Source: Pelobacter propionicus DSM 2379 | Lineage (GTDB): Bacteria; Desulfobacterota; Desulfuromonadia; Geobacterales; Pseudopelobacteraceae | Direction: 5' to 3' | NCBI RefSeq assembly: GCF_000015045.1 | Contig: NC_008609.1 | Span: 620,001-684,000 of the forward strand | DNA length: 64,000 nt | Shown here: piece after piece, positions 26,012 through 39,854 of the stretch | Layout: every line of letters begins with the position of its first letter | Position numbering within the stretch: the stretch's first letter is position 1 | Translations under genes and position numbers: made by a program | Notes under the pieces: generated by a model | Seen by the model: the letters and a program-made list of their open reading frames with translations, nothing else | The model's database searches: none | Told to the model about the DNA's origin: nothing

Positions 26012-27829
26012 CTACATCTCCACCCTGGTGATGACCCCCTGCAGCTTGGCAGCCGGGACCTTGTTGAACTGCACGAAGTTGGGTGTCAGCTTCTTGATCA
26101 CCGAGAAGACCCTCCAGATCGGGTTTGTGGTGGCGATATCCTCGATGCCGTAGAAAATGACCTTCTCCTGGATGCCGTTCTGTTTCAGCAGTAGCTCGAT
26201 ATCGAAGATTTCCATGTAGCCGGCCTTGATCATGAAGCCATCCAGGCCGGTGCCGATGCCGCACTCCAGCACGGACTCCACGCCGAAGGGTTCGTCGGTG
26301 CGGACGATGGAGATCAGCACGTTGCGCTCATAGACGATGTTGCTGCGGATGGTGCAGTGCACCAGGTAGGGGGGGATGATGTTCCACTCCTTGACGAAGA
26401 ACAGGCCGGTGCCGGCGATGCGCCCCTTCTTGTAGATCTGCTCATAGCTCAGCAGGTAGGTCTCCAGGTCCAGCGGGCGCAGGGCCAGGTAGAGGCCGCG
26501 CTGACCCCTGGTCCAGATCAGGATCACGGCCAGGGGGACCGAGGCCAGGATCAGCGACCAGTAGCCGCCATGGGGCAGTTTGTTGCAGTTCGATACCAGG
26601 AAGACCACGTCCACCAGGGTGACGAACAGTGCCAGAGGAACCTTCCACTTCTTGGTGGTGCGGCTGAAGATCATGGTCATCATGATGCCGGTGATGACCA
26701 TGGTGCCGGTGACGGCAAATCCATAGGCGGCCGCCAGGTTGGCGGACTTCCTGAAGACCAGCATGATCAGGATCACCAAACAGAGCAACAGCCAGTTGAC
26801 CGAGCCGATATAGATCTGGGACTTGAGCTGGTTGGATGTGTAGTCCACCTTGAGCAGCGGCAGCATGCGGGTGTTGATCCCCTGGTAGACGATGGAGAAG
26901 ACGCCGCTGATCAGTGCCTGGGAGGCGATGATGGTGGCCAGGATCGTCAGGATCAGGAAGGGAATGTAGAACAGGGGCGCCTGGTACTGAAGCATGCCGA
27001 AGAGGATGTTCTTGGCATCCGGGTGGGTGATGATGAAGGCTCCCTGACCCAGGTAGTTGATCACCAGGGCGACGAAGACGAAATACCAGGCCCGTTTGAC
27101 CGGCTTGCGCCCCAGGTGTCCCATGTCGGCGTAGAGCGCCTCGCCCCCGGTGGCGCAGAGGATCACTTCGGAGAGCACGAAGAAACCGGGGAGACCGTTG
27201 TGCATCAGGAAGGAGATGGCGTGGTGCGGGCTGATGGCTGCCAGGATGCCGGGGTGGGAGGAGACGGAAATTGCACCCGATAGTGCCAGGGCCGCGAACC
27301 AGAGCACCATGATCGGCCCGAAGGCCCGGGCCACCTTGTCGGTCCCCTTGTACTGGAAGACGAACAGGAACAGGGCGATCGTGCCAGCGATCAGGATCAG
27401 CGTGTTCTGGCTCAGGCCGCCCAGGCCCGGGATCAGCAAGGTTCCTTCCACTGCCGAGAGGATACTGATGGCCGGGGTGATCACGCCGTCCCCCATGAGC
27501 AGGGCCACCCCCAGGTAGGTGAGGAAGGTGACGAAGGCCATCTGGCGGCCAGGCTTGATCATTCGTACCAGGATCTCGCGCAGCACGATCTCCCCCCCCT
27601 CCCCCTTGCGGCTCAGGCTCATGGCCAGTACGGCGTACTCCAGGTGTACCAGGATGATCAGGGTCCAGACGATCAGGGAGATGATGCCGAGGATGTTGTC
27701 CTGGGTCGGTTTGGTGAGGGCGATGATGACGGTCAGGGTGTAGATCGGGCTGGTGCCGATGTCGCCGAATACCAGCCCCATGGATTTGATGATGCCGCCC
27801 CAGTAGGAATCGGTTTCGCCATGCTTCAT
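26012..27829 (-). CDS. kup: Low-affinity potassium transporter Kup
   Basis: A 605-residue K+ uptake protein with about 12 membrane helices and a C-terminal cytoplasmic part. The N-terminus has the family signature GLVFGDIGTSPIYTL, then LLMGDGVITPAISILSAVEG and CATGGEALYADMGHLGRKPVKRAW. The start codon follows GGAGG at good spacing. Upstream on the same strand are a promoter, a ydaO-type c-di-AMP riboswitch and an intrinsic terminator. Potassium import is therefore predicted to be shut off at high c-di-AMP. Confidence 0.96.
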   Translation of the reverse strand: MKHGETDSYWGGIIKSMGLVFGDIGTSPIYTLTVIIALTKPTQDNILGIISLIVWTLIILVHLEYAVLAMSLSRKGEGGEIVLREILVRMIKPGRQMAFVTFLTYLGVALLMGDGVITPAISILSAVEGTLLIPGLGGLSQNTLILIAGTIALFLFVFQYKGTDKVARAFGPIMVLWFAALALSGAISVSSHPGILAAISPHHAISFLMHNGLPGFFVLSEVILCATGGEALYADMGHLGRKPVKRAWYFVFVALVINYLGQGAFIITHPDAKNILFGMLQYQAPLFYIPFLILTILATIIASQALISGVFSIVYQGINTRMLPLLKVDYTSNQLKSQIYIGSVNWLLLCLVILIMLVFRKSANLAAAYGFAVTGTMVITGIMMTMIFSRTTKKWKVPLALFVTLVDVVFLVSNCNKLPHGGYWSLILASVPLAVILIWTRGQRGLYLALRPLDLETYLLSYEQIYKKGRIAGTGLFFVKEWNIIPPYLVHCTIRSNIVYERNVLISIVRTDEPFGVESVLECGIGTGLDGFMIKAGYMEIFDIELLLKQNGIQEKVIFYGIEDIATTNPIWRVFSVIKKLTPNFVQFNKVPAAKLQGVITRVEM

Positions 27830-27954: not shown

Positions 27955-28100
27955 TTCGTTGCCCTTCCAATCGCCTACGAGGTTAGCTGACGGGCTAGAG
28001 AGTGGAAGTTCTCTTTCCGGGTGAAAATGTTCTTTCCCCATGCGGAATGCGCCCCGACTGATCGGGTCCCCCGTATCCATTCATTAAAATGGATCTCGGC
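27955..28100 (-). promoter_or_regulatory. Cyclic di-AMP riboswitch (ydaO/yuaA class) upstream of kup
   Basis: The minus strand carries the signature CAGCTAACCTCGTAGGC within 27972-27994, preceded by GGGGACCCGATCAGTCGGGG, GCATGGGGAAAGAACA and CACCCGGAAAGAGA. These are conserved blocks of the ydaO-yuaA class as I remember it. The aptamer lies between a near-consensus promoter and an intrinsic terminator and precedes a potassium transporter, the classic target of this class. The aptamer boundaries are approximate. Confidence 0.85.
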
Positions 28101-28112
28101 TGTTTGGGGGTA

Positions 28113-38258: not shown

Positions 38259-38288
38259 TTGACGGGGGCAATTGCGCTGTGCTATTCA
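38259..38288 (+). promoter_or_regulatory. Candidate promoter of the aminotransferase leader
   Basis: TTGACG (38259-38264) and TATTCA (38283-38288) are 18 bases apart. The -10 is poor. If correct, the transcript starts at or next to the ATG of the 27-codon leader at 38297, which would explain why that leader has no Shine-Dalgarno. Confidence 0.42.
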
Positions 38289-38296
38289 GATGAACC

Positions 38297-38380
38297 ATGA
38301 CTATGACGATTTCTGCCATTGCAGCACGAGCTATCACCGCCGCGGCGCGTTATGCCGCAGGAGTGTGCTCTGCCCGCTGA
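38297..38380 (+). CDS. Alanine-rich leader peptide, candidate attenuator ORF
   Basis: A 27-codon reading frame, MTMTISAIAARAITAAARYA and six more residues, with ten alanine codons of 27 and a stop at 38378-38380. It lies 169 bases upstream of an aminotransferase start and ends 28 bases before a strong intrinsic terminator. This is the arrangement of amino-acid biosynthetic attenuators, in which ribosome stalling at scarce aminoacyl-tRNA favours an antiterminator. No good Shine-Dalgarno is seen; a leaderless start is possible. A longer overlapping frame exists but shows no family features. Confidence 0.5.
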   Translation: MTMTISAIAARAITAAARYAAGVCSAR

Positions 38381-38440
38381 TCGTCGTTGTCATTAAAGCG
38401 TATCGCATAAGCCGTGGGCAGAAGCCCCCGGCTTTTTTTT
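38369..38440 (+). terminator. Attenuator: intrinsic terminator with competing antiterminator
   Basis: The terminator stem is AAGCCG-T-GGGC with GCCC-C-CGGCTT (38409-38419 / 38424-38434), loop AGAA, followed by T residues to 38440. Its 5' arm can instead pair with TCTGCCCGC (38369-38377), which overlaps the leader stop codon: GTGGGCAGA (38414-38422) gives nine pairs including one G-U. The two structures exclude each other. Confidence 0.62.
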
Positions 38441-38549
38441 ATGCCTACGCGGTCCGGTTCGGCACGTTCGCTATCATGTGGCGGACGCATCTACTCCCGC
38501 TCTCCGTGTCGAGCTGATTCCAAGAAACCATCGTGGCGGAGGAAAAAAC

Positions 38550-39854
38550 ATGCGAATCGAACTGGTACCACCCGGAGCCGGTGAACTGACCTACGAGATC
38601 AGAAACATCGTCAACGTGGCTGACAAGTTGCAGAAGCGCGGCATCAAGGTCAACTGGGAGAATATCGGTGATCCCATCGCCAAGGGGGAGATCATCCCCG
38701 CCTGGATGAAGGAGATCGTGGTCCGGGCGGTCATGGACGATTCCACCTGGGGCTACTGCCACACCCGCGGTGTGCTGGAAACCCGTGAGTTCATCTGCGA
38801 CAGGACCAACAGCCGTGGCGGCGCGCACATCACGCCGGACGACATCATCTTCTTCAACGGTCTGGGTGACGCCATCGCCAAGGTCTACGGCTGCCTGCGG
38901 GCAGGCGCGCGGGTGCTGATGCCCTCACCCTCCTACACCACCCATACCGTGGGGGAAATCTATCATGCCCAGTCTGCCCCCTCCCTGTTCCGCCTAAAGC
39001 CCGAGGACAGGTGGTATCCCGATATCGACGAGATGCGCATGCACGTGCGCTACAACCCCAACATCGCCGCCATACTGATCATCAACCCGGACAATCCCAC
39101 TGGCATGGTCTATACCCGGGAGATGCTGGAGCAGATCGTCGAGGTGGCCCGGGAAAACAACCTGTTCATCATCGCCGATGAGGTCTATACCAACATCGCC
39201 TACAACGGCGAAACAACGGTGCCGATCTGCGACGTGATCGGCGACGTGCCGGCCATCTCCATGCGGGGCATCTCCAAGGAACTGCCCTGGCCCGGCTCCC
39301 GTTGCGGCTGGATCGAGGTGTACAACAGCGACAAGGACGAACACTTCCGCAAGTACGTCAACCTGATCCTGAACGGAAAGATGAACGAGGTCTGTTCCAC
39401 CACCCTGCCCCAGACGGTCTTTCCGGCCATCATGCGGCACCCCGAGTACCAGCCCTATCTGGCGGAGCGCATCGCCCGCTACGAGAAGATGAGCAACATC
39501 ACCTACGACTACTTGAGCCAGGTGCCGGCCCTGCAGGTCAATCGCACCAACGGCGCTTTCTACATGGCGGTCGCCTTCAGGGAGGGGCTGCTCAATCATC
39601 GCCAGTCGCTTCCCATTGCCAACGCCGATGTCAGGGAGTATATCCAGGGGCTGGTCAACCAGCCGGGGGTCTCGCCGGACAAACGCTTCGTCTATCACAT
39701 GCTGGCGGCAACCGGCATCTGCGTGGTGCCGCTCTCCTCCTTCTCCACGCCGCTGCAGGGGTTCCGCGTGACCCTGCTGGAAAAGGATGAGGACGAGTGC
39801 CGCCGCATCTACCAAACCCTGGCGGAGAAGATAGGCGAGTACCTGCAGTCATAG
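38550..39854 (+). CDS. PLP-dependent aminotransferase, class I/II (possibly alanine-forming)
   Basis: A 434-residue fold-type I aminotransferase. Landmarks are MPSPSYTTHTVGEIYHA, INPDNPTGMVYTREML, FIIADEVYTNIAYNGE and the PLP-lysine segment MRGISKELPWPGSRCGWIEVY, where the lysine in GISKE should hold the cofactor. ATG 38550 follows GGAGGA. The upstream leader with ten alanine codons suggests that the product is alanine, that is, pyruvate plus glutamate giving alanine. The enzyme sequence alone does not prove this. LeuC-LeuD lie convergent downstream. Confidence 0.88.
   Translation: MRIELVPPGAGELTYEIRNIVNVADKLQKRGIKVNWENIGDPIAKGEIIPAWMKEIVVRAVMDDSTWGYCHTRGVLETREFICDRTNSRGGAHITPDDIIFFNGLGDAIAKVYGCLRAGARVLMPSPSYTTHTVGEIYHAQSAPSLFRLKPEDRWYPDIDEMRMHVRYNPNIAAILIINPDNPTGMVYTREMLEQIVEVARENNLFIIADEVYTNIAYNGETTVPICDVIGDVPAISMRGISKELPWPGSRCGWIEVYNSDKDEHFRKYVNLILNGKMNEVCSTTLPQTVFPAIMRHPEYQPYLAERIARYEKMSNITYDYLSQVPALQVNRTNGAFYMAVAFREGLLNHRQSLPIANADVREYIQGLVNQPGVSPDKRFVYHMLAATGICVVPLSSFSTPLQGFRVTLLEKDEDECRRIYQTLAEKIGEYLQS

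Follow-up and report, generated by a model that had tools for sequence, protein, structure and literature searches.

Ribosome-mediated attenuators of transcription are known from the trp, his, thr, leu, ilv and phe operons of Proteobacteria. The leader ORF of trpL in Sinorhizobium meliloti is read from a leaderless mRNA. To our knowledge, alanine lies outside the set of amino acids for which ribosome-mediated attenuators have been established. Open-licence PMC papers yielded no description of a biosynthetic gene under an alanine attenuator. Leader ORFs read from leaderless mRNAs occur in Streptomyces, and an alanine leader, AlaL, has been predicted before alaS in one genome, that of Streptomyces lividans TK24; its leader peptide, MNVIGRNIFATARATSSPVAAA, is rich in alanine (PMC8079986). 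PMC2965389 surveys 302 species for premature terminators, and its main text names neither Geobacter nor aminotransferases.

The leader described here precedes an aminotransferase gene in the window, the whole 64-kb stretch of DNA that was analysed. Judged by sequence comparison, it is very probably a transcription attenuator of the trp/his type, mediated by the ribosome and responding to charged alanyl-tRNA. Since the literature searched gave only the AlaL prediction and no alanine attenuator of a biosynthetic gene, what is new in the finding is the specificity and not the mechanism. The original prediction had named no established alanine attenuator; this has to be qualified by AlaL, predicted before alaS (PMC8079986). 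If the reading is true, it would widen the range of leader-peptide regulation, in a large bacterial class of environmental importance.

The locus resembles the trp, his, thr, leu, ilv and phe attenuators in having a short ORF rich in codons of the presumed end product, a leader stop inside strand 2, a set of mutually exclusive pairings (1:2, 2:3 and 3:4) and a putatively biosynthetic gene downstream. It differs from them in that the control amino acid would be alanine, that a single aminotransferase gene would be controlled, that the ORF in the order lies a few bases from the presumed transcription start and that an almost invariant CGA codon stands before the alanine run. With the leaderless leader ORFs of Streptomyces and of S. 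meliloti trpL it shares the lack of a Shine-Dalgarno sequence and an ORF that lies at the transcription start or right beside it, but the amino acids are others and the sequence is unrelated. AlaL and the present leaders are both rich in alanine, and the R-A-T-S stretch of AlaL is also seen in some of them (for example ATARATSAAA in L124). However, AlaL precedes a tRNA synthetase gene and is a prediction from one genome (PMC8079986), whereas the leader here precedes an aminotransferase and was compared across the class. The alaS gene of 14 relatives of the window's genome was examined for an alanine leader like the one predicted in S. lividans, and none was found.

All parts of the locus are on the + strand. 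The promoter-like element (38259-38285) has TTGACG as -35 (38259-38264) and TGCTAT at 38280-38285; no strong match to the sigma-70 consensus was found in the window. The poor -10 and the missing Shine-Dalgarno sequence had been named as weak points of the original prediction. Both are real, and both can be explained. TGCTAT belongs to a promoter-like block, TTGAC...TGTGNTA(T/A), which is kept among the leaders. In the order, the first base of the -35 mostly lies 36-39 nt from the ATG, and on this distance the leader mRNA is expected to be close to leaderless, with the ORF beginning within a few bases of the transcript 5' end; the lack of a Shine-Dalgarno sequence in the order leaders would follow from this position. 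In class members outside the order this spacing is mostly 50-72 nt, and a Shine-Dalgarno-like stretch can be recognised in many of their leaders.

The leader ORF, MTMTISAIAARAITAAARYAAGVCSAR, extends from 38297 to 38380 (ATG at 38297, TGA at 38378-38380), and 10 of its 27 codons specify alanine. The other two frames hold 2 and 1 alanine codons, and none of 500 dinucleotide shuffles of the window leader reached 10. Strand 1 is formed by the leader start region (38296-38325) and has strand 2 as its partner. It is followed by CGA-GCT (Arg-Ala; 38327-38332), directly 5' of the main alanine run and present in all 36 sequences of alignment A1, and by a small hairpin inside the alanine codons, GCGGC...GCCGC (38342-38358), whose 5 bp are found in 36/36 aligned sequences; being nearly invariant, this hairpin offers no covariation evidence. 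In strand 2 (38369-38394), the 5' arm of the antiterminator lies over the leader stop (38369-38377), and the part that pairs with strand 1 extends to 38394. Strand 3, the 3' arm of the antiterminator (38414-38422), overlaps the 5' arm and loop of the intrinsic terminator (3:4), which with its T-run occupies 38409-38440 (AAGCCGTGGGC-AGAA-GCCCCCGGCTT) and sits between leader and structural gene. The aminotransferase (38550-39854) is PLP-dependent, belongs to NCBIfam PRK06855 and has a Shine-Dalgarno sequence, GGAGG, read from the sequence at 38538-38542. The frame with its ten alanine codons, the terminator and the nine-base alternative pairing at the leader stop are thus all found where they had been placed beforehand.

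In the alternative pairing, 38369-38377 (TCTGCCCGC) pairs with 38414-38422 (GTGGGCAGA) over nine bases including one G-U, and the same helix is obtained when 38350-38423 is folded alone. This 2:3 duplex is exclusive with the terminator, and its position is such that a ribosome at the stop codon would block it. On its own, the duplex of the window is unexceptional against shuffled leader sequence (p about 0.16); support for it is therefore comparative. The terminator had been expected to covary and does so, with five pairs of alignment A2 changed on both sides and 0/500 shuffles as high. For the antiterminator, the same expectation was borne out between clades but not by counts within the order. 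Across the two order-level alignments, 86% and 92% of cells retain its pairing, column-wise covariation within the order showed no excess over shuffles, and the arm shifts relative to the reading frame between the two order-level alignment groups. Swap tests were carried out in which the pairing energy of a leader's own arms was compared with that of arms exchanged between clades (5000 permutations). With one leader per clade (n=20), the antiterminator arms gave -17.7 kcal/mol for own against -15.0 kcal/mol for permuted partners, a difference reached in 0/5000. Tested against dinucleotide shuffles, the 2:3 duplex is significantly stronger (p<0.05) in 5% of the order leaders and 41% of the others, and it is long in several class members (L122, 13 base pairs, -29.6 kcal/mol).

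A third helix, 1:2, had been overlooked at first reading. Here the leader start pairs with the stop region, which would sequester the antiterminator arm as long as no ribosome is present; the strength of this pairing varies between species. In the window the helix consists of ATGACTATGACGAT with ATCGTCGTTGTCAT, plus GCAG with CTGC. The swap test for 1:2 gave -16.8 for own against -13.7 for exchanged arms in the order (0/5000; one per genus, n=15) and 2/5000 in the rest of the class. The helices 1:2, 2:3 and 3:4 together make up the strand set of a classical attenuator.

Aminotransferase orthologs with their upstream DNA were gathered from 57 genomes for the order-level set. A homologous leader could be aligned in 36 of them, almost gap-free in its coding part, and these leaders have a common layout of promoter-like TTGAC, ATG, the peptide A-A-R-A-(I/T)-x-A-A-A-x-x-A-A... 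and the terminator. At the conserved alanine positions the third codon base varies and all four alanine codons occur; the sole indel between the alanine codons and the stop, in an otherwise intact frame, is +3 (L043). A covariance model was built for the leader, and with a cut-off of 57 bits it located a single leader each, directly upstream of the PRK06855 aminotransferase, in 82 of the 141 genomes from the order. Among the carriers are Oryzomonas japonica, Geotalea sp. SG265, Geobacter sp. AOG1, Geomobilimonas luticola and one Trichlorobacter lovleyi assembly; the leader is absent from Pelotalea chapellei. Extra copies before other genes were considered and rejected, the weak second matches inspected being mostly alanine-rich or unrelated gene ends followed by a terminator. 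If the reading is true, the model could be used for annotating the alanine attenuator.

Several loci depart from this layout. The Geomonas-type leaders L047, L050 and L051 are unrelated in sequence and keep the alanine run, the terminator and the position; one of them is MYTNNVTSRGTVHAAAAARHF. A second leader type, marked by HAAAAAR, was seen in Geomonas and relatives (L047, L050, L051, L099, L240, L243, L248); its hairpins differ, and alanine run and position are the same. In this type the RNA has apparently been replaced with the control codons retained. The whole leader is absent from L004, L005, L008, L010, L020, L027 and L205, which belong to lineages close to the window's genus, and in the first five of these an SH3-domain gene directly precedes the aminotransferase. 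Absence from several members of the window's own family (such as L004, L005, L008, L010 and L020) indicates that the element is dispensable. At L095 (G042), about 1.1 kb and another ORF separate leader and aminotransferase. Two aminotransferase copies, L003 and L031, are found in G021; the copy with the leader is 89% identical to the aminotransferase of the window and the copy without it 83%. This may reflect a mixed assembly, for which 4% contamination is listed.

Beyond the order, the covariance model matches many further families of the class, with the gene directly downstream wherever it was located. Forty upstream regions from elsewhere in the class were collected and the 32 with a clear leader analysed; L127, L142 and L143 of the 40 had no candidate leader and a few others were doubtful. 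Beyond the class the leader recurs in a few families: of 20 upstream regions, L274, L277 and L281 share the design, with CGA-GC(T/G), an alanine run and then a terminator. Over 71 leaders, alanine makes up a fraction of 0.37 of the frame in the order and 0.32 in other class members; the corresponding values for the other two frames are 0.04 and 0.07. In 94% of the leaders, in-frame alanine exceeds dinucleotide shuffles at p<0.05. They are short ORFs with a conserved frame enriched in codons of one amino acid, and the alanine run is the only coding feature common to all 71. The original prediction had asked for conserved alanine codons, and these were found in this frame in every leader analysed, from at least 18 families. 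It would have been contradicted by leaders that keep the terminator and lose the alanine codons; no such leader was found, and lineages without the alanine frame lack the whole element.

The solved structures closest to the aminotransferase are 1xi9, a putative transaminase which we take to be from P. furiosus, and 4cvq, the glutamate-pyruvate aminotransferase AlaA of E. coli. An alanine dehydrogenase of family TIGR00518 was searched for in the genome and none was found. Twelve other loci with an Aminotran_1_2 domain are present, and most of the ten scanned are of the hisC, bioF-like, serine palmitoyltransferase, DapL, CobD or PatB types, with L157, L161 and L162 being general aminotransferases. 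From the nearest solved relatives, the lack of TIGR00518 and the types of the other loci, an alanine-forming role of the PRK06855 enzyme is likely. NCBIfam assigns no substrate to PRK06855; if true, the alanine-forming role would give the family a function.

The conserved alanine frame, the covariation of the terminator and the cross-clade swap tests support the logic of ribosome-mediated attenuation put forward originally, and from them we infer co-transcriptional switching in response to alanine. Transcription would start a few bases 5' of the leader ATG, at about 38290-38297, and a terminated RNA of about 145 nt would end near 38440. When alanine is ample, the ribosome would pass the alanine codons, reach the stop and cover strand 2, so that the 3:4 terminator forms and the aminotransferase, presumably the main alanine-forming enzyme (glutamate-pyruvate type), is not transcribed. 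A shortage of alanyl-tRNA would stall the ribosome on the alanine codons, where it would mask strand 1; the 2:3 antiterminator would then form and RNA polymerase would read on. With no ribosome on the leader, 1:2 could form and should favour termination, most clearly in Oryzomonas.

These states were sketched with a fold model in which only the RNA outside the ribosome was folded, up to the end of strand 3; it is a thermodynamic sketch and not a kinetic simulation. For most leaders, a stall on the alanine codons left strand 3 paired to strand 2, and a ribosome at the stop codon released strand 3 for the terminator. The outcome without a ribosome differed by species. In Oryzomonas (L022-L024) strand 3 was almost unpaired (0.07-0.12), which is consistent with formation of 1:2 in the model. 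The result was not clean in L002, L015, L016, L028 and L054.

The arginine codon before the main alanine run is CGA in 36/36 aligned order leaders (A1 columns 22-28; window 38327-38329), in about 24 of 25 class leaders having Arg-Ala there and in the three leaders outside the class. Among 12 genes of the window, CGA is the rarest arginine codon, with a share of 2%. The three helices do not account for its conservation; by eye there is no convincing pairing partner for CGAGCT, and RNAalifold gives only a 3-bp hairpin. We consider tentatively, and with more doubt than belief, that the alanine attenuator is ancient, older than the class, and that the rare CGA serves as a pacing or pausing codon which puts the ribosome in register with RNA polymerase. 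Pacing by slow decoding is put forward as a hypothesis only, and we know of no built-in pacing codon in other attenuators. The almost invariant CGA raises a testable question on codon choice in attenuators. It is also what speaks for a leader that responds to any slowing of translation, or to arginine by way of CGA, with the alanine codons mainly serving RNA pairing. We hold this unlikely: Geomonas and several class members keep their alanine runs without CGA, all four alanine codons are used, the alanine positions outlast replacement of the surrounding RNA, and the gene downstream is of the alanine-aminotransferase type.

Response to charged alanyl-tRNA was also weighed against more direct forms of sensing. 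The strong conservation of GCACGAGCTA...GCGGCG at the nucleotide level would suit a nascent peptide, ARA-x-x-AAA, that arrests its own ribosome, or an RNA that binds a ligand or protein directly in the manner of a riboswitch. Such sensing appears very unlikely, as the peptide apart from alanine varies widely over the class and the stop codon lies inside the antiterminator arm, as control by ribosome position requires. Known riboswitch, T-box and leader families were rejected, there being no Rfam match at the locus by gathering score or even at E<=10. An additional role in trans, for the leader peptide or for the short RNA left by termination, has a precedent in another attenuator, the peTrpL of S. 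meliloti, as reported in PMC7298713, and a few peptide positions of the present leaders are conserved; the element is, however, tied to the same downstream gene throughout, and additional action in trans is highly improbable. The locus might also be an ordinary operon-end terminator belonging to the upstream SH3-domain gene, beside a frame that arose by chance, since the terminator does lie between this gene and the aminotransferase and alanine codons are favoured in GC-rich DNA. This reading is ruled out for practical purposes by the conservation of frame, alanine codons, promoter-like block and spacing over the class and by the maintenance of the alternative pairings. The attenuator responding to charged alanyl-tRNA is the reading preferred here.

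Two other regulatory RNAs are present in the window, both on the - strand. A molybdenum/tungsten cofactor riboswitch aptamer is found at 978-1095 (Rfam, 65.8 bits). A c-di-AMP riboswitch (27957-28111; Rfam, 76 bits) lies upstream of an ORF for a Kup-like potassium transporter (26012-27829), which was identified by eye.
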